A stretch of 64,000 bases of DNA. It comes from Rhytidiadelphus loreus (Eukaryota; Streptophyta; Bryopsida; Hypnales; Hylocomiaceae). This document shows positions 37,120 to 57,517 of the stretch, in pieces. The notes beneath the pieces were generated by a model, which was not told where the DNA came from, did no database searches, and saw only the letters and a program-made list of their open reading frames with translations. The position numbers and the translations under genes are program-made. The stretch covers positions 44,459,001 to 44,523,000 of the forward strand of contig OX344765.1 of NCBI GenBank assembly GCA_947034895.1, given 5' to 3'. Numbering within the stretch: position 1 is the first letter of the stretch; every line of letters starts with the position of its first letter.

Positions 37120-37151
37120 CCTAAAGGCCATATTCATTAAATTGAGACAAT
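37120..37151 (+). repeat. Left terminal inverted repeat (37,124-37,151) with CCTA flank
   Basis: Twenty-eight bases match the reverse complement of 56,216-56,243 exactly. The match continues weakly inward (TGG after one mismatch). The CCTA directly outside is repeated outside the right end. Confidence 0.75.
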
Positions 37152-37601
37152 ATGGTCATTTTGAGAACTTAAGGCTCCTCCATTCAAAGATAAATTGTTG
37201 AAGGCGAAGATAAAAATAGGCAAATCGGTAGAAGGCTAAGAGCAATTCCACACCAAAACAATTAAGAAACGTGAACGTGCAAAATGGAACTCCACATGAG
37301 TTGTGTAATAAAATGTAATATTTATAAAAGCGGGTCCCTTTACATTGAAGAACATGAATTTACTTGAATCAACTTCTCTCACTTCTCTATATACTTCACT
37401 TCCCGGTATATCTAATCTTGCTAATTCTAATGATTGAATGTCTTGTGTAAAAATGTAGAGGCTATGTGCACACAAAGAGCACTCACCCTTACTAAAAATT
37501 GGTTTTTGTATATGAATGACTATTCTATTAATAGTAATGATCCTTCTACAAAAAGAAGACCACTCTGAACGAGGATCACTCGGCAAACCATCATTCGTGG
37601 A

Positions 37602-38525
37602 TTAAGAACTGCTATTTGTTGCCTCCTTGGCTGCCTCCAAGGCTTTCAACTTGGCCAATCCTCTGAAGATATCCTCGCGTCGAGAAGACTTGGGTGATCC
37701 ACTGTGTTTACTGAAAGTATTGAACATCCCCATCATCATTAAATCCTTGGCCTCTCTCTTCCGTTTTCGTTCACGTCGCGGAATCTCGGTATTGGAAAGA
37801 GACCTAGAACCTCGAGGAGGCAGCCGGGGTATCGATCTATTCACAGTGCTTATGTACGGATCGGCAGTTGTTGTCGATCGTGTATAATTTGTCTGCCGTA
37901 GGTCTCCAAGAGTCGTTCGGTGGGAAATAGGTACAACAGAAGGCAAAGATACTCCGCCCACGGATTTTGAGGGAAATGAGATAGGAATCTCAACGAGGCG
38001 TGGAAGCTGCTGTGCAGTGCATGCACCCAACGGTACCGCATTGATTGGATCCCCAACCTTCGGATCTATATTGAGTTCCTTGCTATGCATAGCCTGATGT
38101 GCGATCGACACCGGCAACAACACTCCATCCTCGAGACGAGGATCCATACCCCGGTCTTCGTCATCCGCATACAATTTCCTGTGCGGGATGTTTGGCGTTC
38201 GCAAAGTCGGCGACTGTGAACGCAAACGACTTGGGGTGGAGCTGGCCCTCTTCATCGGCGATGGTGAGCAAATCGGTGTCCTCACGGGACCCCGACTAGG
38301 TGGGCTATCTACCACGCCTTCCTCCACATTCCCCTTCGAGAAGTTGATGGCCGCCGAAGCCGCATCGGTGGCCGAGCCCAGGAAGTTAGGCTTAGAATAG
38401 GAGGACGGCACGAAGCTCCCTCCAATCGAGCCGGACCTCATTGAAAGTGACACATCCGATCCAGACAGCAAGCTCCTCGTCAGTGGTTCCCTCTGTTGGA
38501 GAAAGTGTAGAATGGATCCTCCAAC
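37602..38525 (-). CDS. Ser/Pro-rich basic protein, terminal exon (about 307 codons), unidentified
   Basis: The open frame starts at a splice acceptor (GCTGTAG|GTTGGAGG at 38,525) and ends at TAA 37,602; its 5' exon is not identified. The product is rich in Ser, Pro and Arg. It has a cluster of SP/TP sites (SPPSRGPVRTPICSPSPM, TPSRLRSQSPTLRTPN) in the first third and a strong basic nuclear-localisation-like patch (RRERKRKREAKD) near the end, followed by an Ala/Lys helix. I do not recognise the family. The acceptor is phase 0, the same phase as the donor at 40,368 of the upstream fusion gene. It could therefore be an alternative last exon of that gene, or a separate gene. Codon use is similar to the fusion gene and unlike the AT-rich flanks. 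Confidence 0.55.
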   Translation of the reverse strand, partial: VGGSILHFLQQREPLTRSLLSGSDVSLSMRSGSIGGSFVPSSYSKPNFLGSATDAASAAINFSKGNVEEGVVDSPPSRGPVRTPICSPSPMKRASSTPSRLRSQSPTLRTPNIPHRKLYADDEDRGMDPRLEDGVLLPVSIAHQAMHSKELNIDPKVGDPINAVPLGACTAQQLPRLVEIPISFPSKSVGGVSLPSVVPISHRTTLGDLRQTNYTRSTTTADPYISTVNRSIPRLPPRGSRSLSNTEIPRRERKRKREAKDLMMMGMFNTFSKHSGSPKSSRREDIFRGLAKLKALEAAKEATNSSS

Positions 38526-38556
38526 CTACAGCAATGGCAATGTCAAAACATCTTTC

Positions 38557-38815
38557 ACAATTATCCTCGACCCAAAGATAAAACACATCCTTCACAATTA
38601 TCCTCGTCCCAAAGATAATACACATCAACCACAATTATCCTCGACCCAAAGATAACAGACATCAACCACAATTATCCTCGACCCAAAGATAACAGACATC
38701 AACCACAATTATCCTCGACCCAAAGATAACAGACATCAACCACAATTATCCTCGACCCAAAGATAACAGACATCAACCACAATTATCCTTGACCCAAAGA
38801 TAACTCAACATAGAA
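38557..38815. repeat. 37-bp tandem array, 7 copies, each with the TTATC...GATAA motif
   Basis: The units repeat exactly every 37 bp (TCG of each unit at 38,567, 38,604, 38,641, 38,678, 38,715, 38,752 and 38,789). Each contains TTATCCTCG-ACC-CAAAGATAA, a weakened version of the element's palindrome, joined by a CAGACATCAACCACAA spacer. The array lies between the phosphatase exon and the Ser/Pro-rich exon. Confidence 0.85.
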
Positions 38816-38998
38816 AACAAACACATGTTGAACAAAACAGTACAACCAAAAGAGGCCAGAAAACTTGATTACAAGTTCAAAATTTTACTAATTCACAAGA
38901 ATGAAATGTACATGAAAATCCGTATTCACAAAAATAATGTACAACGAGTTCTATGATTGACTGAGACACTGAGAAGTCTACTTCTTCCTTCGTCTCTC

Positions 38999-39820
38999 TT
39001 ATTCAATCACTAGATTCATCCCCCGCAACACAAATCGCGACTCGAATGCCTTCGCGGACATCCTCATCCCATCCAATATATAATTGGCTTGATCGTCTGA
39101 TGCGACCAAGGGCGCCACACCTATGCGGTTCCGATCTACAAACTCACGAAGGCGTCCGAGTGGACACTCCTCGTGTAGTTTCTTCAGCCACGGAATGAGA
39201 GTGCCGACGAGCACATTGTCTCCACGCATGTACGGGTTCCAACTCTCAAGGTATATGCAATTCCCATTCTCATTGAGGATGCCCTTTTGCGGAGAATCAT
39301 CAATGAGAATGGTATTGTCCTTGTTGAATGAGTTGGGATCCTGAGGGTCTAGGAACAATTCTTCATCAAGCACTTTGAAGAGCAGAGTCTTCCACGGACT
39401 CCCAGCCTGATGAAGAAATTTTCCTTCTGAGGTTTCTACCCTCCTACAGTTGTCCTGACCTAGGATGTGGTAGGGAGCCTTGCAGTTCTGGAATAGGAAA
39501 CTCGCAACGGGTTCCACCGTCTTCTTGAACATGGAGCTCCAAACTACGACGCGGTTCGAAATCTTTGAAACCTCGTCTAAGAACTCGCGCACATTGGAAC
39601 GAACGAAGACGGCCTTCGTCCCAATGAGGGTTGGGGTTCGATGGGAGAATACATTATCTCGGACCGTGTAATGTTTTTTCTTCTCATGGGGCCCTTGACC
39701 CTGACTCTCACACAACACTCCGTTCAAATCGAACACGATATTCAACCACTTCTGTCGCGGTTGGACCACTAACGAGGACACACTCCGCGGCACTCTGTTT
39801 TTTCGACCTGCCGTTACTAC
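38999..39820 (-). CDS. FCP1/SCP-type (NIF) HAD phosphatase domain, last exon of the fusion gene
   Basis: This exon encodes 273 residues ending VLRGMNLVIE. The HAD nucleophile motif is VFDLNGVLC (about residue 31 of the exon); the family normally has DxDxT/V, so the second acid is Asn here. WSSMFKKTVEP fits motif II (usually WTS/WSA), and TILIDDSPQK is the conserved acid pair of motif IV. Family members dephosphorylate phospho-Ser in Ser-Pro contexts such as the RNA polymerase II CTD. Because the second Asp acts as general acid/base, activity may be low. No ATG precedes the domain in its own frame; the exon opens at an acceptor after a pyrimidine-rich tract. A separate small gene starting at ATG 40,051 with a 60-nt intron is a weaker alternative. 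Confidence 0.75.
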   Translation of the reverse strand, partial: VVTAGRKNRVPRSVSSLVVQPRQKWLNIVFDLNGVLCESQGQGPHEKKKHYTVRDNVFSHRTPTLIGTKAVFVRSNVREFLDEVSKISNRVVVWSSMFKKTVEPVASFLFQNCKAPYHILGQDNCRRVETSEGKFLHQAGSPWKTLLFKVLDEELFLDPQDPNSFNKDNTILIDDSPQKGILNENGNCIYLESWNPYMRGDNVLVGTLIPWLKKLHEECPLGRLREFVDRNRIGVAPLVASDDQANYILDGMRMSAKAFESRFVLRGMNLVIE

Positions 39821-42800
39821 CTGATCAAACACAACACGAAAGAGATGTAGTTACCTGTTGAAAGGCAGAATCAGGCGACCCATAAAACGGTGAAAAGCAT
39901 TGAACCCCACTAAGCGACTGCAGAACCCCTCCGTTAAGTGATTGTTTGAGTGCCAACGGGCGGTGCACACTTCTAAGTTGTCCGCGCTGGGCACAAACAT
40001 GGGCAATATCAATTCATTAGACACTACACGCATTGAAGAGAAGTTTGACATATATTTATTTCCGGGTGTATTTATGATACACCCGGTCTAACGGTTTTGT
40101 TGATCTCTAGCCGATTGTATACAAGTACCAACTACACTCCGTTCCGGTATCTACACTATGCTACAAACGTAGTCATAGAGTGGTAGTCCGTCCACGCTTC
40201 ACAATCAGAGACTGTCCACTCCCTCCTGTCAGACAGAAGGAATTGGCATGAGAGTTTCTCACTGGGAATATGAACATGATGGAAGCCAAAACAAACATCC
40301 ATCACATCACATTCGACAGACTCAATCATGAAATATCGTAGGGATCTGACGATGGAGGGGAGTGTACCTGACCGAACTCCAGGGTTCCGGCGTCCTCATC
40401 CAAATATTCCCCGTAGTCGACAGTCTCGTCATCGTCGTCCGGGGGATTTTCAAACTCTATCTCCACCTCCGGTACTCGTGGCTCAGGTGGAGGGGGGATG
40501 GGATCTGGAACAACGTCACCCACTTCCTGTGTCTCCGGGACCGACTCCGCTTGCACCTCCAATGCAGGCGGCTGGCTCAAATTATCCTCGCCCCGAGGAT
40601 AATCCAGAGCACTATCAGCTCCCTCTGTTCCAATTCCAAGGGGAGCTCTCTCTTCTTGGATCTGTTGATCTGTTCTATCAACTGGAAGATTGGACACCTG
40701 CTCTTGTTCCAATGGAGGCGGAGAAGGGGGAACAATATCGTCTTCGGCAGGTGGGAGAGGATCATCTTCGACTCGAGGATAATCCTCCTCGGCGGTCTGC
40801 TGACCTGTGGCTTCTGATGCACCACCAACGTCATGGGCATCAGGATGAGAGGCAGAGGGTCTTGTGATCGCGTTCTCAGAGAAACATTCTCTTCACGCAA
40901 TTTCTCTAGTTCTTTCTTCAATGCCTCCTTCTCCGCCAGCTCCTCTTCCCTTCTTCTTGACTGCTCTGCCCTCTTAAAGGCCTTCCTCTCCTCTCTCTGC
41001 CTCCAAAAATCCTTGAGCTCCTGCTTCACAGGACGGAGAGGAACATGAGTTGGGTCTGAAGGCTCCCTGGACTCGGGAGCATGGCCAGGGTGTGCCTCTG
41101 CAGGTGCGTTCGGAGAATGGGTGCCCCGTGATGGACCCGCGCCACCATCATCCGGACCATCATAGTTGAAGTCCTCCATATCGGAATAGGAGTCCTCCAC
41201 ATCGCTGATTATGATGTCCGGTATGATCTCCTCCAAGGGCTTCTTTTCGATCTTCTTTTTCCTCCGCATATCCGCTCCGGAGTCTTGGATTCCTTTGGAG
41301 GCGGATTCGGGGCCCTTGTCCTGTACGTGGGATTCTTCCACATTTCCTCCTCGAACAATATTTGTATTTGTTCCGTATTCATTGATGCCGAGGTTGGAAG
41401 CACCCTCGTCACCAGGAAAATCCCGATCCGCCCTTGACACACCCGCATTTCCATCAATTGAGGGTGTGGACTCCGAGTCCACATCTGGAATTTGAAGGTT
41501 ACGAGGTCGCTCATAACCTGGAAGATATGGCGAGTTTTCATGGCAGAAATCGTTGATGTCTAATTTACTGCCATATTTCGCCATTTCTCGAAGTTTTTGG
41601 GATGCATGCCGGTCAGTAAGGCCATAATAATAGAGACCATACATCTGTAGAAGAAAAAGCAGTTGTTAATACTCATTCTCAACCCCTCATTTTGCACATC
41701 ATACAACAGACAAGGATATCTTCGAGCCGAAGATAACTGACAATACGACAATTTATCTTCGAGCCGAAGATAAAGGCGAAACATAGAGTCTCACCTTGGC
41801 AGCAATCATAAACTTTGAGCCAGTGTAAATGCCGATGACGTTTTCTCCAGTCACGGCAAAACTCTGGAGAATGTCAATATAGAATTCCATCCTGAGCTCA
41901 CTCGCATGGATTCTATATTTCGCCTCGGTATTCTTCTGAAAATCCGTGTAGTAAAGAATGTCATCTGTGGCATAGACCTTCTTCACTACATCCTTATATC
42001 TTGGCTCCCTATCATCCCATTTCTTCATTACAAATAGGAGCTTCACCGGGGGCGCCAACGCACGGTTGGTCGAGTTGTCCATCCTCTCGGCCTTACTTGG
42101 TAGGTAGGTGGACATCTTGACCTCGTACCCTGTCATCTTCGACGCCGCAAATTTCTTTGCCGCGTCGATGTCATATGAATTCCCCAGAATCCATAACCAA
42201 ACATCAGGAGTAGACAACACCGGCCTCAGGTGATCTGTCAGAAAATTCAGCAATGGCAAGCACGGCGGACTGTCACCGGATCCTGGATTTGGTCTAGGGA
42301 GGATTCGAAAATCTATGACGGCGACACGAAGGTCTCTCATGATGTAGGGCCACACGTGGGTGGTCACAAGAGCTTGGGGATAGCATTGGTGACCCCGAAT
42401 GAACACATCCCCTCCCACTAGCTCCACCCGCTTCTTCATTTTCAAGAAGGTCTTGAACATGTTATAGACCATCGACAATTTTGGGTTGTCCTTGTAGTCT
42501 ATTGCTGTCTTCTTCTTTGCCTCGTTGGTGAGGCGCTTAACGAAGAACTGGTTGGGAGGGGCGGTGAGGAGGAAATCCCACGTTGCCGAGGAAAACATGT
42601 TGTTGCGCTTCCATTGCTTCCACGCCACGTCAATGACTTCCCCATGTCTGTCCTTGAATTTCAAGGACTTATCGAGGGCCATGAATTCCTCCATGATGAC
42701 TTTCTTTCGCTTCCTCCTCTCTACCCAGTGCTCGGCTTTATAATTGTCCTCGCACAATATCTTTGAAGCGCCCACTGAGACCTTCGGGTAGTCCCGTGTG

Positions 42801-44755
42801 CGACCTTCTGTTCTCCCAAGCAGATGGAGGACGTAATCCTTCAGATCAATGTCTGTGAAGTGTCCCATGTGCTTGAAAAATTCCCTCTTCAATGAGAAAT
42901 TCTTCTCGTTGAAGGTCTTTGCGCTTTTGAATGGTTTGCGCGTCACAGGATCAATCAGTGATCCTTCCATGTGTTTTTGGAGGAACTCCTCCCACATCTG
43001 GTAAGTCTCATCGGCCAAGGTAATAATTCGGATTTCATTCTTGACATCCGATGCGAGCTTCACCTGTGCTCCCTCCTTGTCCGGATTGATGCTGCCATAT
43101 CGGATCATGACAGCGTCGACAAAATCCTGTCGAGACGAATATTCAATGAAGTAAGCTCAGTACTCAATGCATACATTTTTCTGACCATTATCCTCGACCC
43201 GAGGATAGTTGAGACAGAGATCACAGAACATGAAATTACAGATAACAAACCCTGTAGAGGCAGTACATTGAAATAACTAGATCATGAACATATACATTTT
43301 ATCTTCGCCACGAAGATAAAATGGACCTACCTTGTATGCTGCAAGGTTGAAGACAGCCTTATTCCGCCTCACCAATCCCTCATTCTCGATGTTGGTAGGC
43401 CGCTTGAGCTCCTTCCAAACCTGCCTACACGCGGAAATTTGGTTCCCCCACGTTGGCTGACTGTGAACGAGGTGATTGGAGGCATTGCACCATTTTGAAA
43501 TAGCTGTGAGCTGTTTCGGGTCTCTAGTCCAGACAATTATAGCTTCCCACGTCTGCAACTCGATCTTCCGAGTCTCACAGCATCCTCCTTGTTGTAGCAT
43601 TTTGGCTGCAGTGACACTGTGCTGGCTATTGATGATGAAGAAGCCTCCGGTCTTGATGGAATCCCAATCCTTCGGACGCTCCTTCAGAAGTTTCTTATTG
43701 GCATCTACAGGTGTCAAGCAAAGCTTTTGTCTTTGCTGCTCTGAGCCGAGATGAACGAGGGTGTCTTTCATCTCAAACACCATTCTCATTTCTAGCTTCC
43801 GGATAATATATCTTTCCTTGGCCAGGAAGCATTGTTTGATGTCTACGGTGAAGATCTGGGGATGAAAAATGAAGCACTTGCCATTTTCCTTCCAAAAATC
43901 TGATTGATATGCTCCAGCCACTTCATGTTTTTCGATTGCTTTCTTATCTGATGGCTTCCGTGGATTCACATTTGTGAGAATAGAGCCTGAACTGCCAGCG
44001 GTTGCTGGACGAGTGTCCGTTACAGATTTCCTCCGTTTGTCACTCGGCTCGCCAGTACTGGTGTCCGGGGTCTTTCTCTTTTGGGCCTGAGCGCGGGCGG
44101 TCCCTCTCCCACTTCCTCTACTCCCTGTTCGGCCACGCACTCCTGACGCTGATTTGGTCTCAGCCGCAGTTTCCTGCCTTTGATGACCACGACCGTGACT
44201 CGCTCGGGCAGGTCCTTTTTGGACATGTTCCTTGGCGTGCTCAGTGAGCTTATGGAACATGTACCCAATTTTCCTCGCCATGGCCCTGGCGTTCCTTCTG
44301 ACCCAAGGGTAGTACCTTGAAATGAAGTCTTCAGCCAAGGTATCATGGTTTGCCAAGTGCAAGTCGGCGATGAGGTTGTTGAAGTCGAACACTCCCACAG
44401 TGTCATCCTCATGGCAGATAATGGAATAAGTATGCTTTGTTTCCCTCCCCGCGTTGTCGTACCCTTGTAGTGTGATGACTAGGTACTTGTCTTGGTGATT
44501 CTCTACGAGAGCGACCTTCTCACTGAGGTTCCAATTCACGTAAATCCCACTGTCTTTTACTCGGTGACGTAGGTAGATGTAATCCTTCGACTGGTTGACA
44601 CCGAATGTCCAAGAGTCGACAACGGCTTTGAATTGCCAGAGCTTGCCGTAGAGCTCTGGCATCTCCGTTATGAAGGGCTCCTCATCGACCCACTTGCTGA
44701 ATGGCTCCAGAAACGGCAGTGTAGTTGAGTAATCGTACTCAGAGTCTGTAGACAT
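38999..44755 (-). CDS. Element-borne fusion protein: ParB-like, DNA-methyltransferase-like, coiled coil, acidic tail, FCP1-like phosphatase
   Basis: The exons that I can join are 44755-43331, 43126-41795, 41644-40368 and 39820-38999. The joins are AAG|GTAGGT to ACAG|GAT, AAG|GTGAGA to CTACAG|ATG, and CAG|GTACAC to a pyrimidine-rich tract ending GATCAG|GTAG, all phase 0. Start is ATG 44,755. About residues 1-190 are of unknown fold, then comes a basic linker (KRKTPDT, DKRRKS). About 300-475 has a ParB/DGQHR-like core (FIINSQHSV, 375 on). About 740-950 resembles a permuted N6/N4 DNA methyltransferase: a SPP block at 761, LRPVLSTPDVWLWILG, then ENVIGIYTGSKFMIAAK at 903 in the place of VLDPFxGSGTT. 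A coiled coil (about 1125-1175), an acidic Pro-rich tail, and the phosphatase follow. Exon 3 changes frame near 40,850. ParB and methyltransferase assignments are inference from motifs. Confidence 0.6.
40062..40086. other. Perfect hairpin, 9-bp stem, 7-nt loop
   Basis: CCGGGTGTA pairs with TACACCCGG around TTTATGA. It lies in the long intron (39,821-40,367) of the fusion gene and is unrelated in sequence to the GATA-type palindrome. Function unknown. Confidence 0.7.
40581..40793. repeat. Two element palindromes inside coding exon 3
   Basis: At 40,581-40,603 the palindrome ATTATCCTCG-CCC-CGAGGATAAT is perfect (10+3+10). At 40,771-40,793 a weaker copy (ATCATCTTCG-ACT-CGAGGATAAT) occurs. In the acidic-tail frame they encode DYPRGEDN and DYPRVEDD, so the DNA motif has become part of the protein. 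Confidence 0.8.
41716..41773. repeat. Two palindromes in intron 2 of the fusion gene
   Basis: ATATCTTCG-AGC-CGAAGATAA-like copies lie at 41,716-41,736 and 41,752-41,773, inside the 150-nt intron 41,645-41,794. Confidence 0.8.
43187..43321. repeat. Two palindromes in intron 1 of the fusion gene
   Basis: Copies at 43,187-43,209 (ATTATCCTCG-ACC-CGAGGATAGT) and 43,297-43,321 (TTTTATCTTCG-CCA-CGAAGATAAAA) lie in the 204-nt intron 43,127-43,330, the second close to the splice donor. Confidence 0.8.
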
Positions 44756-44811
44756 GTTGGTATAAATCTGTGCACAACATACCGTGAAAATCAGAGTTGT
44801 AATTTGATTTT

Positions 44812-44919
44812 TTATCTTCGCCTCGAAGATAACAATCGAAAAATAAAAATCAATTATCAACATATGGAATTCATTTGTATGTCAATGCCACAGTTCAGTA
44901 TCTTCGGTACGAAGATAAT
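44812..44919. repeat. Two palindromes just upstream of the fusion-gene start
   Basis: TTATCTTCG-CCT-CGAAGATAA at 44,812-44,832 and TATCTTCG-GTA-CGAAGATA at about 44,899-44,917. They lie 57-165 bp upstream of the ATG at 44,755, in a probable 5' UTR intron or promoter. A splice acceptor (GTGCACAG) precedes the ATG by about 15 bp. Confidence 0.75.
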
Positions 44920-45074
44920 ATTGTACGTTCTCTTATTCTATTTTCTTTACATTGTTGTTTAGTTGCTCTTAACTTCTAGAGGGGTATAACTGTTGCTTAT
45001 TCTAATTTCATTACATTAAATTCGTTGCTTGTAGTTTTTTATTTTAATTTCTGTTATTTTGTGATATTATTTTT

Positions 45075-45715
45075 TGTTTGACAATTATCCTCGGCCCGAG
45101 GATAATTGTTTTTAAGTTATTATATTTTTTGAACAATCATCTTCGAGCCGAGGATAATTGCTTTCTAATTAACAACATTTTTGGATTATTTTTTGTTTGA
45201 CAATTATCCTCGGACCGAGGATAATTGTTTTTATGTTATTATATTTTTTTGAACAATCATCTTCGAGCCAAGGATAATTGCTTTCTAATTAACAACATTT
45301 TTGGATTATTTTTTGTTTGACAATTATCCTCAGACCGAGGATAATTGTTTTTATGTTATTATATTTTTTTGAACAATCATCTTCGAGCCGAGGATAATTG
45401 CTTTTTAATTAAAAACATTTTTGGATTATTTTTTGTTTGACAATTATCCTCGGCCCGAGGATGATTGTTTTTTATTTTTATTTCTTTTTCTTTTTTGCAT
45501 GCTTTTCTGTTACTTATTTATCCTCGGGCCGAGGATAATTGTTTCTTTTTTTTGAAGTGATGGCCCTTTTGGGGGGGGGTTATTTTCTGAGTATCATTTA
45601 GCCGAGTATAATTGTTAGTCTTGCTGTGTTTTTCATGACTACTGTGGTTTTTTGGCTTTTTAGACTACAGTTTATCTTGGACTCGATGATGATTATCTTC
45701 GGACCGAGGATAATT
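45075..45715. repeat. 119/120-bp tandem array with two palindromes per unit
   Basis: Units starting with the block at 45,082, 45,201, 45,321 and 45,441 each hold one palindrome of the CCTCGGNCCGAGG type. The best copy, at 45,081-45,109, is symmetric over 14+1+14 bases. Each also holds a second copy of the CTTCGAGCCGAGG type about 57 bp on. Further single copies follow near 45,519 and 45,687-45,712. The array sits upstream of the fusion gene. Confidence 0.85.
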
Positions 45716-46384
45716 TTTGTTGGAAACTCAGTAATAACTAACGATAATTGTGACGAAAACCCTAAATGTAATACTAATCATCTAGGCATGTGTAGAATAC
45801 AGACATAGAATTTTGTGAACATTCAATTAATACATGCATACAAACAAAATTGAAATCACGCAATGAATGCAAGAGCAAGTGTGGAAACAACATAATACTA
45901 CAACTAAAAATTTGGTCACCTGCAAATTATATTGTTTGCACACTTCCTGCAGCAGATTCTAAAATGTAATAGAATTTCTCCACACCCTAATGTTCAATGA
46001 ATACTGCACACACACTAAACCCTAATCCACAAACAAATGAGACAAATGAACAAAAATTTGAAACCCAAACTCTAAAACCGAGGCCAGGAGCACTTGCATT
46101 CACATTGCAAGAACGTGAAGAATTCATGAATACATAACAACTGAAACAAGAAGAAGAAGAATTTCACACTGAACATGCACAATGAATGAATGAGTAACTA
46201 CAACCAAAATTCAAGAACCTTAATTCAGATTCAAGAACCTTGCCCTGAATTCTAGAACCTCAACACTAGAAAACAAAAACAGTCACAAAGGTTGAAAACA
46301 AAGTACAACTATTTCAAATTGAATAAACACATCAAATAGAGGCCAAGTACAAAACTCTGCTTACCAAAAATCAACTGCTTCGTT
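45716..46384. other. Non-coding, inside the element
   Basis: AT-rich sequence with AAACCCTAAA words and a short repeated CAAGAACCTTAATTCAG / ATTCAAGAACCTT block near 46,215-46,260. No gene seen. Confidence 0.45.
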
Positions 46385-46680
46385 TACAGCAGCCAATGTC
46401 GCTCCTTCAGCTCGTGCGCCTGAAGCTCCTGCGCCTCAAGCAACTTCAGAACACCCGCGCGTGAAACAGCAGGCAATGTCGCTCGAAGCTCCTGCGCCTT
46501 CACCTCCCGCGCTTCAGCTCCGCGCCTCGCCTCGTCTCCCGCGCTTCAGATGCCGCGCCTCGCCTCCCGTGCTTCAGCTTCCGCGCCTCAGCTCCCGCGG
46601 CCCAAGCTGCTTCAGCTCCCGCGCCTGAAGATCCCACGCCTCGAGCTCCCACCACTGCAACCTAAACACGCAAGAAGAGT
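46385..46680. other. GC-rich CTCCCGCGC/TTCAGCTCC low-complexity island
   Basis: Repeats of GCGCCT, CTCCCGCGC and TTCAGCTCC words give a CpG-rich island in otherwise AT-rich DNA, about 1.6-1.9 kb upstream of the fusion-gene ATG. It may be a promoter island or a degenerate minisatellite. No convincing protein is encoded: frames are repetitive and unlinked to neighbours. Confidence 0.55.
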
Positions 46681-46779
46681 AAAACCGCCCTGGAAACCCG
46701 TCATCAACTCGTGCTGGAAAGATGACCTCGCGCTGCAAAGTGAGGCTGAACCCTCGCGTTGGAGAGATGATCTCCCAAG

Positions 46780-47060
46780 CCTATGACCTCCCGAGCCTGC
46801 GACCGCCCGAACCTACGTTCCCGAACCGGAAACCTCCCGAACCTACGTTCAAGAGTCTGCGAACTCCCGAACCTACGTTCCCAAGTCTAGAACCTCCCAA
46901 ACGTACGTTCCCGAACCTACATTCGTGAGTCTGCAAACTCCCGAACCTACGTTCCCAAGTCTTCAACCTCATAAATGTACGTTCCCGAACCTACGTTCAT
47001 GAGTCTTCGAACTCCCAAACCTACGTCCCCAAGTCTTCAACCTCCCAAACGTACATTCTT
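46780..47060. repeat. 74-bp minisatellite
   Basis: GAGTCTGC or GAGTCTTC starts recur at 46,853, 46,927 and 47,001 (74 bp apart). Each unit is built from shorter CTCCCGAACCTACGTTCCC-type blocks. Confidence 0.75.
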
Positions 47061-47090
47061 GAGCCTGCTGCCTCCGAAACTTATTTTCTC

Positions 47091-47117
47091 AACCCTAAAC
47101 CCTAAACCCTAAACCTA
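47091..47117 (+). repeat. Short interstitial telomeric tract (CCCTAAA)3
   Basis: Three consecutive CCCTAAA units directly follow the 74-bp minisatellite. Confidence 0.85.
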
Positions 47118-49423
47118 CCATGCCGAGCCTATTGCCTGTCCCAAACCTATTTTGCCTAATGTATGTCGCGAAACCCTAGTTTTGAGCTTGGGGCCCTCTA
47201 CACGTAGGTGTCCTTAAGACCTTAAGCCTTAAACGATTGATTGGTCACTGCAGAAATCATCTATTTTGTCCCTGTGGGAATTGTTGGTTTAAATAAACCC
47301 TAAAAAATACACATTGGAAGACAAACTATTGTAGATGATCTAAAAAATAAACCCTAAAAAATACACATTGGAAGACAAACTATTTGCTAATTTAATCAAA
47401 TTTGAATAGAATTCAATCAATGATATTTCTAATTTGTTTAGGGTTTCAACACCCTAAATGACCAACGTGTTTTTTGAGCATTTTAGAATTTACTTTAAAT
47501 TTCAAATGAATCAAGCATCTTTAGAACTTACGCACCGAAACACAATTTTCAGATTCCATACTCTATTCAAAGCTTACATTACATTTTGGACATTCCATAC
47601 ACTAAAATTCTATATGTAATACAAAGTACTGTCATTAATAAAAGAATAATAAATAATAAACTCTTTAATTTGTTTAATTTGTTTTTTTTAAATTATAAAG
47701 AACTTTTACTTTTTAGATACTTCTCACCCTTAAAGGTCTAAACACCATATTTTAAATATTTAACATTTAAAAAGGTATGGAATAACCACTAATTGGGACA
47801 AGAAATAAAATGTAGAAGTTGAAAAAATTTTGAACTTTAAATTATGATTCTTCTGAGAATTAATTTGGTGCCAATTGTTTGGTTCTTTACAACAAAAAAT
47901 ATAAATGAAGTATTCATATTCTGTAGTTTGAAGAACTATTATTTCTAAATTCATGGAATAGGTTTTAGGGTGGAATGCCAAAAAAAATGAAACTTCTACG
48001 TTTTTTTCACTCGGTTGTCTTCATTAAAATTCCATGATTGTTGTGCATTGAGTTTAGTTTTTAAAGTACAAAATACTCTTGGCTTGTTTTATTAATTAAT
48101 TCCATGTTAAAAAGATTAAGAATGATTTTGATATAATATTTTGTTTATTGAAAAGTTTTCATGACACAATTCTAAAAGTACAACACTCAAAATTGTTCAT
48201 AATAGTTTAAAGAAAAATAGGCCTTTCATTGATACATAACTTACATTTTTTGAATAATTATGGGTTTAAATTACACAAGATGTAAAGAAGTTCTCAAACT
48301 TATAGAATATAGTATTTTCATACAATTTCAAAGTCATTGTATGCAATACGTTGTAATACATTCATTTCTAGGAGGTGAAACTCTCATAATGATTATTATT
48401 TTATGAGACATTGAAGTGGTTCAAGTCTCTAAACCATGATGGAGTTAATAATAATGAATACAAAATCCATCATTCATTTCAATGTCCTAACAAAGTAGGC
48501 CCATTTGAAGCCAATTATTCTTCAAATCATAGCTTCGAAATTCGAATGCGATGAAAGTGGACATGATGACTTCTTAGAACAAAGGTCTTTGAAATTTTTT
48601 ACTCTTCATATAGTTACCAAGCTTGTAAAAATAGGGGTCCTACTTTGTATAGTTCAAGTATCCTACTTTCTTTTTGAAATATTGAAACATTTGCTTTTTA
48701 TTTCCTTTTATTTTTTAAAAGATTTTTTTTAATATGTTTATAGTATTTCTTTACATTGTTGTGCAAACTTTTGGTTTTCCCCCTTAATCATTCTAATTTA
48801 AAAAAACAATTGAACAAAATAATATACTATGTTGAAGAATCATTATTCTTTCAAATTTTTATCATAATTTAATTCGTACAATATTTTATTTTTTTGCTCT
48901 AGTTGTTCTCATTAAAATTTCAATTCTATGAAGTACAACATCAATGGCTTCGTTTCTTCTTTCGTTTCCAATGTGCTCCTCTATAAATGCAAATTCCTTA
49001 GAATGTGTTAAAACATTCTGGAAAAGAAACTATTACAAGAACTACATTTTATAGAATTGAATCTTAAAAAATTCACAATTGTACATTATTCTTTGTTCTG
49101 AATAGTGGAACTCAAAGTTGTGTATATTTTTTATGACATTAAATTCGAGATTGTACGGTCATTTAAAAGTCAACAACTTTGGACATCATTTTTTAATTAG
49201 AACTAATAATATTCAAAATAGAAACTATTATATTTAATCGTGTGCTTTAAGGTAAAAACCCTAAACCCAAAACCTATAAATCTAAATAAGAAACATCCTT
49301 AAACTTCTGGATATGGAATTTCAAAAGCAAATATGAATTGTCAATATAATCCGCAAAATCTTAATGATAAAAATATTGAATTCATGAACATATAATTTAC
49401 ATTTCTTCAAGACTTTGTTAAAA
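47118..49423. other. AT-rich non-coding stretch inside the element
   Basis: A 55-bp direct duplication (AATAAACCCTAAAAAATAC, then CATTGGAAGACAAACTATT) lies at about 47,292-47,385. No coding frame was seen. The low complexity and lack of palindromes could mean a nested insertion within the element. Confidence 0.5.
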
Positions 49424-49571
49424 CCTTACACCCTACACCCTACACCCTAAACCCTAAACCACATACCCTAAACCCTAAACCCTAAAAACCCTGATCCCTA
49501 CACCCTAAACCCTATAACCTAAACCTAGAAGCCTATATCCTAAACCCTAAACCCTAAACCCTAAACCCTAA
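49424..49571 (+). repeat. Interstitial telomeric repeat tract, degenerate (CCCTAAA)n
   Basis: About 15 CCCTAAA or one-base variants (CCCTACA, CCCTATA) run over 148 bp. This is the Arabidopsis-type plant telomere motif. It is degenerate in the middle and perfect at the right end (49,537-49,571). Confidence 0.85.
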
Positions 49572-51770
49572 GTCATGTTGTGCTAAGTGGCTTTGTGTAG
49601 AAAAAGTTTTTCTTTTTGGCTTTGATCCAATGTAGCTAAAAGGAAAAAGAAAATAGAAAAAAGAATGTATGGTATGAGTTTAGACCCCTTATAACTTTCA
49701 TATATAGAAAAAATACGGTACAATAAGAATGGCTCATGCCTCTTATAAATACTGGGGGGGAAAATAAATTATAGGATAAGGGTGAACTAGACCCCTTATA
49801 TACCTAATTCCTTACATTAAATAATAAATACCACTTCTTTGGATATTAGGTGGATTTATGAAAGCTTTTTGATTTTTGAAATGTGGTAACTGCTTTGTAT
49901 TAGCAGGCCCTTATTTCCATACCTTCCCTCCCTTCAGCATGTACTGAGTAATCATTCACCTGATGTACTTACCAGGTTGATTAGGCGTTAAATAAGTTAT
50001 TAAACCACTCACTAATGCTTACTTTAAGTGAGTTTAGTGGCTCTTAAAAGGAAAAAACGAACCAGTTGGTTCACCTTCAAGACTGTACCTCCATTTGGCC
50101 ATACCATGGCCTTGCCACCTCATCTGATTGAGTGCCACCTCATGGAAAGACCAGCCCATTCATGTGCTTGATCTGGTGGGCTTATAAGGCCGGTTTGTGA
50201 GGCACTTTTTGCATATTTTTTATGCGAACGTGCAGTTGCAGTCTGGCCCACACGATTACTGCTGTATTGCTAAAGATTGGAGACTTGAGACTCGATGGCA
50301 GCTACACAGGTTACTTTTAGCCAAATGATTTTGTGGCACAGTAGTTGGTTGAGTTTATTTGCTTGTGGACTTGAGTTGTTTTGATTTTTTATTTACTGTG
50401 AATAAGTGATAACAAGCTGCTGCGTGGCTGTAGACACCTTGTCTACGATCGACTAACATTTGGATGTTTGGTGGGTCATGGGGACAGGTGAGGCCCGCAG
50501 CTTTGGTCAATAATTCATCATGTGGCTCTTCCCAAGCTGTGACATATCACTACTTTTTAGGGGCTTAAAATCATATGTTTTTTAGCTTATATGATTTTGA
50601 TAGATCTTAAAAAGTTTACTTTACATTACTTCTAGAAACTTGATCTATTAGCTGTGTTTGTTCTATTGGACTTTCCATCAGTGGATCCTGATTACAAATT
50701 ACAAAACTTTCTATTGTACCTTAACTACCTTTGATAAATGAAGCTGGTTATGATGGGCAAAAAGCAATGAGATGATCTGTATTTTGCTTACAGATGTTGA
50801 GCAGTATCTTAACATGATTTTAAGGTTAGGCAAGAAAAGCCCCGAATTGGGGATGTCCCACCCGCCCACCCGGGCAGTCCTAAAGCCCTAACTTCATTCC
50901 CTACTGAAAGCTTACAATAGGTACAATTTTGATTATAGCCAATGCACATTGGACCCACCATGTGCCAAATTGGTGTGGATACCTCCCCTATACATTCATC
51001 TAAATCAGACTTAAGAATAAACTATTTTAAAAAGAAGGTTGATTGGCGGGTGGTGTATGAATTGCCAAATTTGCCAAACTCTAAATTCCGCTATGCTTTC
51101 AAAGAATATTTCCACATTCTCCGGAAAAAGGTGACTGCCATGGATTCCACAAAATATAAATTCCCCTATTTAAATCATAAAAAGATCGGCTACGTCATAT
51201 TCCAATTCTATTAATGAAAAGCTCCTTCATATTCCACATCGTTGTCATTATGTGGGCGAATCGAATGTCAACGGCCCCCTAATCCGAGCAAGTACTTCTC
51301 CCCTACGTCCAGAAAATCATGAAGAACTCAAATGCCGTTGAATTTCCCGCTCATTTTCTCCCGCTAGTGTATGCATCGTCTCTCTTCCTCGAGCACCTCA
51401 TTTCCTCTCTCGTGTTTTCCAGATTTCCCTCCTCCGCGGCCTCTTGCTGACATTGCTACCGCACGGCCTTTGAACTTATGTTTTTGCATTCATTTACATG
51501 TTTATGTGAGTAGGTGGCTTAGTTTCGCTCGGGTTGTCGTAAGTTCCTCTACTTCCCTTCTTCCCTCTTCCCTGAATGCTAGATTCCTGTTCTTGCTCCT
51601 TAATTTTAAGCAAAGGTACATGCAGTATTATTTAGTCCTTCGATTCATCGCGTATTCAGAATTCCGGTGTCACGTCTCAAGTGTTGTTCTTCGTATGTTA
51701 TGTTCGAGAAAGAACAACCGATTTTCACGCCGTAAATATCGGAACTATAAATTTCTCTAACACATACGTG
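49572..51770. other. Non-coding, inside the element
   Basis: No gene could be supported. Short frames at 50,942-51,214 and 51,371-51,760 lack motifs. The part from about 51,240 is pyrimidine-rich and could be a 5' leader of the plus-strand transposase unit. Confidence 0.4.
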
Positions 51771-52125
51771 CATGGAGGTTATCTTCGGTTCGAGGATAAT
51801 CCGAAACATGCATGGAGGTTATCTTCGGTTCGAGGATAATCCGAAACATGCATGGAGGTTATCTTCGGTTCGAGGATAATCCGAAACATGCATGGAGGAT
51901 ATCCTCGGTCCGAGGATAATCACACACATGCATGGAAGTTATCCTCGGTCCGAGGATAATCACGGATAGGATGGAGGTTATCCTCGGTTCGAGGATAGTC
52001 ACGGACATGTTGGAGATTATCCACGGCTCGAGGATAATCACAGACATGCATGGAGGTTATCGTAGACTAGAGAATAATCACACACTTGTATGGAGGTTAT
52101 CCTCGAGCCGAGGATAATCGCCCAA
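51771..52125. repeat. 40-bp tandem array, 9 copies, one palindrome per unit
   Basis: CATGGAGGTTATC starts at 51,771, 51,811, 51,851, 51,891 and 51,931 (exactly 40 bp apart), then four slightly shorter units. Each has TTATCYTCGG-TYCGAGGATAAT followed by a CACACATG or CGAAACATG spacer. The array sits upstream of the transposase pseudogene, mirroring the array upstream of the fusion gene. Confidence 0.85.
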
Positions 52126-52266
52126 ATGCATAGAATGTAAATAATAACCATAGACAAAGGAAGACATTCACTGACATTCGAGATGATATACAGAGTTTAC
52201 ATACATAATCATTCTGACAGTCTAATGAGGGGGAATGCATAAAATCTCTCAATCTTTGACGTCTGC

Positions 52267-52554
52267 TATCTTCGAATCGAAGATACCTTTTGCTTTTCAT
52301 ACTCGTAGTTTAGAGTGTTTGGTAGATGAAGTAATATAATTCTGATTGTTCTAAGGAATGCAAAGATGATAGATTAGATTCTGTTTTTTGGTTCTGTTGT
52401 GCTAATTCATCGCATTTTAACTTCATTAGTCTAGGTGGATGGATTAGTATACATGATCACAAAATGGTTTACAATTTTACCCTCCACTGGAAGTCACTTT
52501 GCCCCTGATTTTGTCAATGTGTCGTACTTGTTTTTTATCCTCGCCTCGAGGATA
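52267..52554. repeat. Two single palindromes at the 5' end of the transposase unit
   Basis: TATCTTCGAATCGAAGATA (52,267-52,285) and TATCCTCGCCTCGAGGATA (52,536-52,554). The second lies in what looks like an intron ending CACGCGCAG just before the ATG at 52,597. Confidence 0.8.
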
Positions 52555-52596
52555 CTCACAACAGTATTAATTAATTGGTGTTCTTTCACGCGCAGA

Positions 52597-55445
52597 ATGG
52601 ATACTTCAGATGCCAACGAGTTTACAGTTCCAGTGCCAACTTTGCCTCCGGGTGTCGCAGCCTGCGAGGGATTTCCTCGACCTTCTTGGTATACCAAATG
52701 CGTCACACTCAGAAATGAAGAGGGGATAGAGGTGGCAAAAGGAATTTGTCATAGTGTTGATGCAGATCTCGTCATTGACATGGACGGGCAACCACTCGGT
52801 GATGACCGGGTTGCAATTCAAATTGCAGAGTCTTTGTGTGAGGCACATGTTCCGTCGGAGTGGATGTGGTCCATGCACTCTTGGCACATATCTAGAGTCT
52901 ACCTTAATGGTGCCAGCTTATATGATCACGAGCAAACGCATCTCTTCAATTCTGCAATCTCTTCAAACAGTTCAAGGCGGCGTGTTCGGACTGGAGTTCG
53001 CTCCTATGAAAGCTCACGGGAGAGGACTGAGCCTACCAATCTCCCGAAGAAAGAAGCCCTCCTCACAGAGCAAGCAATTGCTGATGTTTCTAGTATGAAA
53101 TGTTGCTAGAAGAATTGCTTGCAACCATTTCCACGTAGTCAGATTCAAGCCGTTCGGTCTCTACTTCATATTGACGGTGGAGTGTTCTGGCGCAAGTCAC
53201 GTCTGCTTGACGTGCACAAGCAAACCCACACTGATTCCAATGGAAGAGACATGATCACCTTGGCAAACCATGAAATTTGTTCGGTGGCTTGGTGTGCCAT
53301 TCATGGAGTATCGAAGGCTACCTTTTATAGATACAAGAAGATGGCAAAAGATGACCAAAAACCGGAGCATCATAGCAACCTTGGAATGAAGAAACCTCGG
53401 ACACACACTTTGCAAGCAACAGCAACTCTTCGATTGTTAGTGGAGAATGAAGCGGACACGATGCCTCACAAATCGAGGACCCTTGAGTCTGGGGAGAAAG
53501 TCCCCTCCATGGTCCTACCGTTTGCATTTCGTTGGAAGGACAAGTTACCACAGATTAACAATGTCAATTCCTCACTTCAATTGCAACATATTTCGGCTAG
53601 TGGATTGAGCAACATACGTCGTCAATCTTTTCCAGAGTATGCTCCAAAGGCTAGAGGAGATAGTTTTTCTCGTTGTGGAACCTGCGATAGATATAGGCAA
53701 CTCAAGAGTGCTTGCACTCCACGTTCACGAGCGCAAGACGTGTAGTCTAACAAATTGAGAGTGCACCTATCGGGGCAAAAGGCGCATAGGAACTTGTACT
53801 ATGGAAACCGTTCAATGTCTGAGATGTATCCTGACAAGGTTTTGACTATAATCCATGACAAGATGGATCACTCAAAGACTACTTCCCCTCATTACTCGCA
53901 CAAGAGTAAGAGAAATGATTCTTTCATGAAGATGCCTGTCACTGTTACAGGCATGATTGCTCATGGTCATGGAGATGTGCGATATGCACACTATGGCTTG
54001 GACATCTTCCCAACAGACTCCAACCATACTATTGGGTCCATTGCAAAATTATTGCGAGATCTAGAGTCCCAACCGAAGCATTCATCTCATCAATTGTTTG
54101 TAGGAGGAGAGCGTTCTGAACTGACAGAGGCTTTGTTAATAGGTTCAGAGATTTGTACAGACTCTCTCGGGTCCCCCCCTGAAGTATTGGTGGAAGCTCA
54201 ACCTCTTCCTCTAACATTGACTCTTCAGCTTGACAATGCTTCTGGCGACAACAAGAATCGGTGGGTTTTTGCATTCTGTTCTCTTCTTGTCTATAGAGCT
54301 ATTTTTCGAGAGATATACATCAATTTCCTCATTGTTGGACACACTCATGAGGACATTGATGCTCTATTTGGTCGTTGGAGCACTAAATTGAAGACGAATG
54401 ACTACCCCACACTTCCAAGGTTGATGAAGTCTTTCATGGATTGTGAAACACAACCCGTAATTCCTCATCTCATTGAGGAGGTTCCTGATTTTAAGCGATT
54501 TGTGGACGGGTACTTGCATACAGGCGATGATTCTCTACAGGGTCATTCTCAAGCGCAACAGTTTAAGTTTTATAAGGATTCCAATGGGTGGCCATTGATG
54601 CAGTACAAGATCCTTTGTACCGATGTTGATTGGTTGCCGAAAGAGGGTGGGGGATTCGCTTGTGGAAGGAGACAATAGATGGGCACCCTAAAGTACCGAG
54701 GGGTAGTCCTCTACCTTTGCCACCACAACAAATGCGTTGCTTTGATGAGATTTGCAAGGGTTTAGATGGGTACATTGCATTGTGGGGGGCAATGGGAAAT
54801 TAAGACTTATCTGGCGAGTTTAGGAGGAAGAATGAGCCAGTGCGGAAATATTGGGAAGGTGTGAGAAGTGCTCTCAATGCTCCGCTTGTGGTACATGAGA
54901 CATTGCAGCATGGATTTTGGCCAAATTCTCGTGTTGCTGATGAGGTGGAAGACCAATACCTAGATGATGGTACGATGCGTGAGGAGTTTGCAGAAGATGC
55001 ACCTTTTGTTGGTCGTAGGCGTGATCGTCCACTTCCTTCATTTCGTATTGGCCGTGATGTATATGCAGGTTACTTAGTTGTTGTGCGCCCCGCTGACGAT
55101 GACCTCCGTCCATTTTGGCTTGCTCGGGCTCTAACAAATCCTAATCCAGATCCAGGTCATGTCAATTCGATTCAACTTCAATATTGGACACCTACGTCTT
55201 TTCATCACACCAATGAAGAAACATATGCTGGGTGGGACACAAAACAAGGGAATTCTTGGTGCGAGGATAAGGCTATCTCTCCGAGTTGGACGCATACAGA
55301 CTGCATTATGACTGCTTGGAAGCCACGTTTCAAAGAAGGCACTTCTGATCCAAGAGTTAGAATTCCCAAAACACAAATTGCTATAATCCAAACATCGGTG
55401 GATGCATATGTATCTGGTGAAAGCAATAATGTATCTTCGGAGTGA
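52597..55445 (+). pseudogene. RNase-H-fold transposase (DUF7869-type, GHTHEDID family), decayed
   Basis: One coding track runs from ATG 52,597 to TGA 55,445, but is broken by TAG at 53,107, TAG at 53,743, a frameshift in the G-run near 54,645-54,652, and TAA near 54,801. An N-terminal Cys motif straddles the first stop (MKCC, stop, KNCLQPF). Next are an HTH-like segment (GVSKATFYRYKK), a second Cys block (SRCGTCDRYRQLKSAC), and the nuclease core. Candidate catalytic acids are D in HDKMDH (about residue 420), D in LQLDNASGDNKNRWVF (about 546) and E in GHTHEDIDALFGRW (about 585). The conserved tail (about 54,840-55,445) is also readable. From memory the family corresponds to the domain called DUF7869; that label needs a profile search. 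In an intact copy this protein would cut and join the element's ends in the nucleus. Confidence 0.75.
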
Positions 55446-56215
55446 AGATGAATAGTTTGTAGGCATAGGAAATCATGAGGAGTTTTGCGAGTTTGTACGT
55501 TATTTTCTTAACTTTAGGGAGGATGACAAAAAAATATGGAAAAAAATAAATTATAAAGAGTTGTAGAAGTTGATAGTTTCTTTGATTAGGGCAAAAAAAA
55601 TATAATAAAAAGTTGTTAGAAAAAAACATGTGGAGAAGATGAAATAGATTTAGTTTTTTTATTCTTTTAGTTCATTGTTTTGATCTTTTTTTATATTATT
55701 TTAGAATTTGATGTTATAGATGTTGTATAATATAATATATTTTTATTTTTATTTCTTGTATGGTATTGTGTATTTTGTAAGTTCTTCATTGGAATTCTAT
55801 TGTCTATGACATTTGTTTTGGAACACGATGAGTACTAATGTTTTCTATACAAAGTAATTATGAACTTCTCTATCTAAGCATATGTCAAATTCTTTACTTT
55901 GACATTGTAGTTTTTGATCAGGCTAGGTGTACAAATGTATTCTATCATGAATGATTTCAAAAATCTCTACCTCACTATATGTCAAACTATTTACTTAGAT
56001 ATTTTAGTTAAGCACTTATTATAAATGGTTCTAGTTTCCCATCCAAAATCCCTCCTTTCAACGTCCTTCACTACTATTTTTTTCCTCCAATTTCTTATAC
56101 TTGTACAAATTCTTTATTCTTCAAGCAGTTTATGGTCTCAATTTTTTGAATTGTCTCAATTTAATGGACTCTTCTACATACTAAATTTAGGAAGATGATT
56201 AAAATGAGAATCCAC
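55446..56215. other. 3' flank of the transposase, inside the element's right end
   Basis: AT-rich sequence. The stop codon of the transposase overlaps a weak palindrome (TATCTTCGGAGTGAAGAT, about 55,432-55,449). A partial copy of the terminal repeat (ATTGTCTCAATTTAATG, about 56,150-56,166) lies 66 bp inside the right end, as a subterminal repeat. Confidence 0.6.
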
Positions 56216-56247
56216 ATTGTCTCAATTTAATGAATATGGCCTTCCTA
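56216..56247 (-). repeat. Right terminal inverted repeat (56,216-56,243) with CCTA flank
   Basis: This is an exact inverted match to 37,124-37,151. It overlaps the last codons and the stop of the membrane-protein gene on the minus strand. CCTA at 56,244-56,247 matches the left flank. Confidence 0.75.
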
Positions 56248-57517
56248 TGAAAGGGACTAATTGGGAAACATTGAGAAGCTCAGCTCGGGCATTAAAGTGT
56301 TGAGACTTCCAATAAACTATTGTTACTACAAAGGCTCCAATATAAGCAACTATTGATAATAATAAACCAAACTCTACAACTCTACGATCATAGACAACGC
56401 TAATAATCCATATAATAGTTGTAACTACAAAAATAATCAAAGGTAATACTACAAGGATGCTTGAAACTTTGGAAAGCAAAACAATGAAGTAAACAACTAT
56501 TCCACCTATGCACACACATACCACACCTAGCACAATATGCGATTGCTTCAGCATCAAGTTTGGTCCAATGAATCGTTCCTCTACATGAACCATTGCTTTA
56601 AGCAACTTTTGCTCTCGCCAAGAGTTCATATAGACTACTAATGGTCGATGACAAGGATTAACAAAAAAGAACACACTAACCTCCAACAACAAAACAATAT
56701 TCAAGATCAATCCAACCACTTCAAGCGGCGCCACAGGCAAGTCTTTCACCACTCGAAAGATAATTGCATAAATATACCCCAATGCTTGTAATGCAAGAGC
56801 ACTCATAGCAAATCCCGAATTTCCACGCAAGAATTTCAACTCATCATATTTTGGCACTACCTCCGCCAACATCAATGCTGTCGTCCCTGCAAATGAGAGT
56901 TCGTTGCGTTCGTAACGACCAATTTGAGTTTCTCTTTCAGCATCTTCTCCAATGACCATGGCCTCCGACTCATCGTCCACAAAGTCTAAATCCGACCATA
57001 ACCATTCTTCTTGAAGCAAAGCTGATTCTTTCGCTACATACACGACAATCTCACAGCAAAATAGTATTCGACCTTGGGACTTGGAGAATGGAGACACCCA
57101 TGACCAGAGCATCTTCATATGACCATACCAGTCACGAATTGGTAGAGGTTGACTTAGATTCCGGCATAATTTGTTGTATCTCCAAATCAAAACTGCACTT
57201 TGAAGTGACTGAGAAATGAATACCCAAAGGCCATACACTGGTGCAAAGACAGCCATAAACAGGAATAAAACCTTGTTTCCTCTGTTCGACACAATGTATT
57301 TCACATTGCCCCAAACTGCGACAGTGGAGGCAAGCAGAGTGACAAGAAAGCCCCAAATGACGTCTGACAAAGGTCGAAGGCATCCAGAGTCTTCCCCAGG
57401 AGCAGCAGCGGCGTTGGGCTCCGTGGCTGCTGCAGCACCCACGACCACACCCAGACTCACCGTCGCCATTACCACCCTCGCAACGTTATGGGGCACTCCA
57501 AACACCCTCTTGGCCAT
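56222..57517 (-). CDS. Multi-pass membrane protein of unknown function, 431 aa, C-terminus altered by the element
   Basis: The start is ATG 57,517 in a good plant context (ATCATGGCC); upstream in-frame codons lack another ATG. The product has about eight hydrophobic segments: one near the N-terminus (VMATVSLGVVVGAA), two more before residue 100 (WGFLVTLLASTVAVWG, FLFMAVFAPVYGLWVF), and five in the C-terminal half, including LVVLPLIIFVVTTIIWIISVV. A soluble acidic loop (DLDFVDDESEAMVIGEDAERE) lies in the middle. I do not recognise the family; its membrane location is unknown. It is one uninterrupted exon. The last codons (RPYSLN, stop) lie inside the terminal repeat. Joining the flanks across the element would end the protein at FIG followed by TAG, so the insertion adds six residues and replaces the 3' UTR and polyadenylation signals. 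Confidence 0.7.
   Translation of the reverse strand: MAKRVFGVPHNVARVVMATVSLGVVVGAAAATEPNAAAAPGEDSGCLRPLSDVIWGFLVTLLASTVAVWGNVKYIVSNRGNKVLFLFMAVFAPVYGLWVFISQSLQSAVLIWRYNKLCRNLSQPLPIRDWYGHMKMLWSWVSPFSKSQGRILFCCEIVVYVAKESALLQEEWLWSDLDFVDDESEAMVIGEDAERETQIGRYERNELSFAGTTALMLAEVVPKYDELKFLRGNSGFAMSALALQALGYIYAIIFRVVKDLPVAPLEVVGLILNIVLLLEVSVFFFVNPCHRPLVVYMNSWREQKLLKAMVHVEERFIGPNLMLKQSHIVLGVVCVCIGGIVVYFIVLLSKVSSILVVLPLIIFVVTTIIWIISVVYDRRVVEFGLLLSIVAYIGAFVVTIVYWKSQHFNARAELLNVSQLVPFIGRPYSLN

Follow-up and report, generated by a model that had tools for sequence, protein, structure and literature searches.

Does a 19.1-kb segment of the moss Rhytidiadelphus loreus move as one transposon, and if so, what do its second gene and its many palindromes do? 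The segment lies in a stretch of 64,000 nucleotides of contig OX344765.1, the whole of which is called the window here. The 18–19 kb element to which it belongs is a real, many-copy transposon that moves as one unit, a large DNA transposon of the cut-and-paste type with 28-bp terminal inverted repeats (TIRs) and 4-bp target-site duplications (TSDs). The best explanation of the remaining features, to which we give about an even chance, is that a protein of the Pfam family DUF7869 moves the element and that the product of the second (cargo) gene binds the palindromes and controls or protects the element. While transposons with TIRs are a known kind, this regulatory system is possibly new.

A transposon in many copies

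The ends of the window copy are an exact 28-bp inverted pair, reading AAGGCC at the ends and bordered by CCTA on both sides as the earlier note on this DNA had reported, and the 28-mer has no further match in the window at up to 8 mismatches. The genome searched was the window's own assembly, with 489 contigs and 407,041,205 bases in all; it holds 133 forward and 140 reverse exact copies of the 28-mer. The same 28-mer read backwards occurs 0 times in either orientation in these 407 Mb, which rules out a chance inverted pair. Among the first 100 of the 273 genomic places, 86 form 43 facing pairs (plus then minus) less than 100 kb apart and 14 are unpaired. The spacing is 15–25 kb in 28 pairs, against a mean of 0.16 and a maximum of 2 in 500 null draws; 22 of the 43 pairs measure 17.6–18.8 kb and 21 at least 20.0 kb, and the window copy is larger than the commonest size among these listed pairs. 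The 28-mer is thus no unrelated dispersed repeat, an outcome that had been named as damaging to the idea of a single unit.

Perfect 4-bp TSDs were found in all 28 distinct copies in which both ends were compared, namely 20 pairs and 10 full copies (five shared), the inner and outer copy of a nested insertion, and the window copy; degenerate copies are unrepresented in this sample because the pairs and full copies were picked among facing pairs near 18–21 kb. The duplicated sequences vary (22 different ones among the first 26 copies) and are 71% A+T, with A as the first base in 7 and T as the last base in 11 of the 26. Six queries, taken from cargo exons 1 and 2, the first part of exon 3, the NIF domain, exon 5 and the transposase core, all found a match in each of the 10 other full copies read, in some of them split in two pieces, and each of these copies holds 24–36 palindromes. 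Paired ends across the genome, the TSDs and the shared internal genes therefore bear out the self-contained mobile unit that the earlier note had proposed. Exons 1 and 2 also seem to occur together with the transposase on a contig of other origin sized 46150, and exon 1 with the transposase on another sized 80586, as judged by equal contig size across the match lists.

The nested insertion (G000:C1:65939579-65981994) consists of a copy with the TSD ATAA within another end pair with the TSD TTTT. Its joined flanks match none among the 11 copies, and no empty allele was seen at the same site in this single assembly. Two copies, C1_7464 and C1_66451, are 97–99% alike per 500 bp in the transposase and NIF modules and 72–85% in the head of the cargo gene, an uneven likeness that may reflect module exchange or gene conversion.

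The DUF7869 gene and the cargo gene

The two genes are divergent, as had been described, with the cargo on the minus and the transposase on the plus strand. The transposase gene of the window copy is broken: its frame runs into TAG at 53107 and again at 53743, is interrupted near 54643-54680 and meets TAA at 54801. In 4 of the 10 other copies its frame is open from stop to stop over at least 949 residues; a start, MDTS, was seen only in C1_7464 (at C1:7464315, with an open frame of 949 amino acids), and C2_53931 has a stop in the transposase core. At least 107 homologues were scored, and the seven with an organism name belong to Ceratodon purpureus (two) and Physcomitrium patens (five), in line with a moss host. 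DUF7869 was matched by 23 of 23 members, and the other Pfam families by one member each at E-values of at least 0.055. In P0079 numbering, the aspartates D422, D545 and D587 are shared by all 23 homologues compared. Predicted are a strand before D419/D422, a helix, a strand before D545, a helix, a strand and a helix with D585/D587, an order that fits the RNase H-like DDD core known from DDE/D transposases. We use the label transposase because of the position between the TIRs, the copy number, the acidic triad and the open frames in other copies, and infer that the DUF7869 protein is a DDD transposase that moves the element.

In the cargo protein, residues 246–457 of exon 2 match the fold of the beta-class DNA methyltransferases M1.HpyAVI, M.BceJIV and M.RsrI. 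Unlike in these enzymes, the catalytic motifs are altered and the domain belongs to a eukaryotic transposon gene that also encodes a NIF domain. In place of DPPY and FxGxG, the catalytic motifs of the beta class, the cargo has D282-x-R and (F/Y)xGxK at positions placed by hand in the alignment, not from a structure alignment; among 26 sequences the D is invariant, and the R and the G and K of the second motif are nearly so. An active methyltransferase that marks the element's palindromes to tell self from non-self would agree with the N6A/N4C fold of the class, but the changed motifs make it improbable. The first motif of the NIF domain reads DLNGV, with Asn in place of the second Asp of the NIF/FCP1 form. 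Exon 3 of the window copy has a frame change at about 40863-40870, which leaves an open reading frame of 362 amino acids vs 446–509 in 6 of the 10 other copies.

Two contigs, L001 and L002, in a Synechococcales cyanobacterium bin (AVDCRST_MAG81) carry a plant-type, intron-bearing cargo gene and are probably contamination of the prokaryote genome record. Their identity to the window cargo is 22% in exon 1 and 30–31% in exon 2, and L002 has the same NIF domain (E-value 2.4e-14) with the motif DLNGI.

Between two subfamilies of the element, A and B, the ratio of nonsynonymous to synonymous divergence (dN/dS) in cargo exons 1–2 is 0.10–0.13 at a dS of 0.7–0.9. This purifying selection, the match in every full copy read and the apparent joint presence with the transposase on the contigs sized 46150 and 80586 rule out a captured passenger gene and point to a regulator maintained by the element. 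Viral-contig scans, which find only relatives sharing short patterns, confirmed no relative of exon 2 in two scans, so that a viral origin of the cargo is not supported, and they yielded no relatives of the transposase in one scan and no palindrome pattern. A ParB-like nature of exon 1 is a weak lead: one of 14 members hits phrog_723 (E-value 0.019) and none of the 14 hits the ParB families of Pfam.

Palindromes and their possible readers

The palindromes are 21 bp long (9-3-9) and lie mostly in non-coding parts. Their form in the window is TTATCCTCG-NNN-CGAGGATAA, with the arms TTATCCTCG/TTATCTTCG. All copies had been said to lie inside the element, and this is what was found: at up to 4 mismatches 39 of 39 window sites are within it, whereas five versions of the window shuffled base by base gave 2.8 sites on average, and at up to 3 mismatches 33 of 33 are, whereas 200 control palindromes with scrambled arms averaged 0.015 sites and never exceeded 1. 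The 44.9 kb of window flanks hold none. The arrays upstream of each gene that the earlier note described are present (11 of the 33 sites upstream of the cargo and 9 upstream of the transposase), but the sites are not limited to these regions, with 11 spread over introns 1, 2 and 4 of the cargo, 2 in exon 3 and 0 in the transposase frame.

Distant lineages have another palindrome sequence with the same architecture and in the same place. In L001 and L002 the form is TTCAGCTCG-NNN-CGAGCTGAA, with the arm TTCAGCTCG replacing TTATCCTCG/TTATCTTCG, and both contigs, like the window, have a palindrome in introns 1 and 2 that begins 12–26 nt past the 5' splice site. Peptides encoded by palindromes with arms seen in DNA occur in 14 of 48 intron read-through tails of metagenome proteins vs 3 in 39,910 amino acids of coding core, and peptides of a further arm, TTATCGTCG, in 9 of the 48 tails, partly overlapping the first set; the DNA of these metagenome palindromes is deduced from the peptides.

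Within this genome the arms are kept while the introns around them diverge. Between C1_7464 and the copies C1_66451, C2_14843, C2_53931 and C2_53573, respectively, the arms in intron 1 agree at 33 of 34 positions each and the rest of the intron at 92, 88, 87 and 133 of 167. The corresponding values for intron 2 are 23, 23, 33 and 33 of 34 in the arms and 72, 71, 69 and 91 of 116 in the rest, the low values for the arms of C1_66451 and C2_14843 arising because the second site does not align. A selfish micro-repeat without a role, spread inside elements, could have reached the two sites in coding exon 3, and slippage can yield tandem arrays; however, the kept arms (33/34 vs 92/167 in the flanks), the empty window flanks and the presence of other arms in the same places in distant relatives disfavour this idea, which we regard as very improbable. 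The exon 3 palindromes, at 40582 and 40762, are translated in frame (DYPRxED), and Rickettsia reportedly has palindromic elements inside coding genes in a similar manner.

We hypothesize that the cargo protein, with its methyltransferase fold and altered motifs, would bind the 21-bp palindromes as a dimer, upstream of both genes and within introns. Such binding would shield the element from host silencing or set its expression, and the lineage-specific palindromes would result from binder and sites changing together, with the binder as the presumed cause. The working mode would resemble that of VANC of the Arabidopsis VANDAL elements, with unrelated parts; in VANC-like anti-silencing, a motif-binding protein removes DNA methylation. 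A stronger version, in which a moss lineage made a methyltransferase into a sequence-specific, catalytically altered anti-silencing binder with a private, co-evolving 21-bp palindrome per lineage placed upstream and in introns, is plausible and held only tentatively, as we lean somewhat against it.

Alternatively, the palindromes may be the transposase's own sites, serving repression or pairing, with the cargo acting otherwise, for example on RNA polymerase II via the NIF domain. The model here is Spm, where the regulatory motif repeats of En/Spm are TnpA sites and TnpA binds them for repression and pairing. Such sites are expected near the ends, and 0 of the 33 palindromes lie there (left 481 bp, right 795 bp), so that we consider this alternative unlikely. 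The palindromes could also act in RNA, as hairpins just past 5' splice sites and in introns of the 5' untranslated region (5' UTR) that control how both genes are spliced or feed a small-RNA pathway. The fixed place behind the 5' splice sites in introns 1 and 2 argues for hairpins, as do the compensatory changes of the arms and the 12 of 18 transition-type mispairs that keep G.U in the sense strand (6 do not). Yet five more mispairs fall outside the G.U and A.C types, the tandem arrays of separate dyads with periods of 37 to 120 bp resemble protein sites, and stems of 9 bp are short for Dicer-type processing; action in RNA is a doubtful prospect on balance.

Several points weigh against a cargo protein that reads the palindromes. 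Binding to them, and effects on expression and methylation, are predicted; an equally good reader of the palindrome would be the transposase or a host factor, and the palindrome could just as well work as an RNA hairpin. A DNA-binding site needs no fixed place near a 5' splice site. A methyltransferase fold by itself is no evidence of sequence-specific binding, and the TM-scores of the whole model are low (0.17–0.27 by query). The empty terminal parts are unlike the placement of VANC motifs. Subfamilies A and B share one palindrome despite their divergence in exons 1–2; therefore, the sites change slowly and no co-change is seen within this genome. As to the transposase, fold searches of its model list no RNase H-like match, with the core poorly modelled (predicted TM-score 0.49, residues 420–470 mostly at a pLDDT below 50), and by tblastn each of the 11 copies has a stop or break in at least one part.

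The window copy and its place among known elements

The features of the window copy are collected in Table 1. Its insertion site is the stop codon of a minus-strand host gene; with the flanks joined the gene ends in ...NVSQLVPFIG-stop, and the occupied site appends six residues, RPYSLN. The host open reading frame (ORF; 56222-57625, minus strand) apparently encodes a multi-span membrane protein. The extra stretch starts beside a degenerate, telomere-like CCCTAAA tract, and G+C-rich, imperfect tandem repeats with periods of 14–74 lie between both genes at 46400-47100.

Table 1. Features of the window copy in window coordinates
Feature	Position	Strand	Remarks
Left TSD, CCTA	37120..37123		4-bp rule holds in 27 further copies
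Left 28-bp TIR	37124..37151	+	Exact genome copies counted in text
Cargo exon 5, basic Ser/Pro-rich C-terminus	37605..38525	-	ORF; acceptor TAG directly before; match in 10/10 other copies
Cargo intron 4 (5' limit deduced)	38526..39001	-	37-bp-period array, 7 palindromes, 38561-38803
Cargo exon 4, NIF/FCP1-like phosphatase domain	39002..39820	-	Pfam PF03031, E 6.2e-15
Cargo intron 3 (limits deduced)	39821..40365	-	Without palindrome; L002 has two
Cargo exon 3, methyltransferase-like domain (its end) followed by coiled-coil and acidic region	40366..41644	-	
Cargo intron 2	41645..41794	-	Palindromes at 41716, 41753
Cargo exon 2, beta-class DNA methyltransferase fold, altered motifs	41795..43129	-	78 homologues; fold match
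Cargo intron 1	43130..43330	-	Palindromes at 43188, 43299
Cargo exon 1, start codon 44755	43331..44755	-	16 homologues; conserved INGQHS-type motif
Array upstream of cargo, perhaps 5' UTR intron	44812..45713		11 sites
Extra stretch, ~1.3 kb	about 49572..50878		31-80 bp there in C1_7464, C2_1062, C1_5162
Array upstream of transposase, 40-bp period	51779..52117		8 sites at up to 3 mismatches; another at 52535
Transposase gene, ~950 amino acids when open	52597..55448	+	Broken in this copy; DUF7869, PF25273, E 5.9e-47
Partial TIR copy, 17 bp, subterminal	56150..56166		
Right 28-bp TIR	56216..56243	-	
Right TSD, CCTA	56244..56247		

No paper on DUF7869 was found among the open-licence papers searched (subscription papers, Repbase and preprints lay outside the search), and none of the titles and abstract openings listed describes such an element. 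By its TSD, the element appears closest to Sola, to which it is likened by description, not by transposase sequence. The portions of the Sola accounts consulted give 4-bp TSDs, TIRs of 11–1124 bp, sizes in some cases above 15 kb and an occurrence in the moss Physcomitrella patens (PMC10741241; Sola2, PMC3627910). The present element agrees in its TSDs (28/28), its TIR length, its DDD-like invariant residues, its large size and its moss host. In contrast, a conserved second gene and a palindrome system are absent from those portions, and the A+T-rich TSDs do not follow the AWWT described there for Sola2 of Dictyostelium fasciculatum (PMC3627910). En/Spm (CACTA) elements share the size above 10 kb and the short TIRs, but have 3-bp TSDs and CACTA/CACTG ends (PMC10741241), and they are excluded because both differ here (4 bp, AAGGCC).

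The uncharacterised family DUF7869 gains a likely job as the transposase of an 18-kb, high-copy element, which also offers an explanation for numerous 'hypothetical proteins' annotated in mosses and metagenomes. To our knowledge, anti-silencing encoded by transposable elements is well known only from VANDAL and few other elements. If the cargo protein acts as proposed, the VANC principle would have been invented independently here, and the NIF-type phosphatase domain might connect RNA polymerase II to the bound sites. Escape from silencing and the joint change of binder and site would then become testable in a second case, unrelated to the first, whose protein folds can be recognised and whose DNA code is clear. 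VANDAL elements are MULEs, with a Mutator-type transposase and TSDs of 7–12 bp; a MULE is excluded here by DUF7869 and the 4-bp TSD. VANC motifs occur in introns and in intergenic and terminal non-coding parts, frequently as tandem repeats, and vary from family to family (PMC5735166). The moss element likewise has a second gene and a short, family-specific motif repeated, often in tandem, in introns and other non-coding stretches, whereas its transposase and TSD are others and its motif is a long dyad that is absent from the terminal parts. Unlike VANC as described there, the cargo protein combines a DNA methyltransferase fold with a NIF domain.
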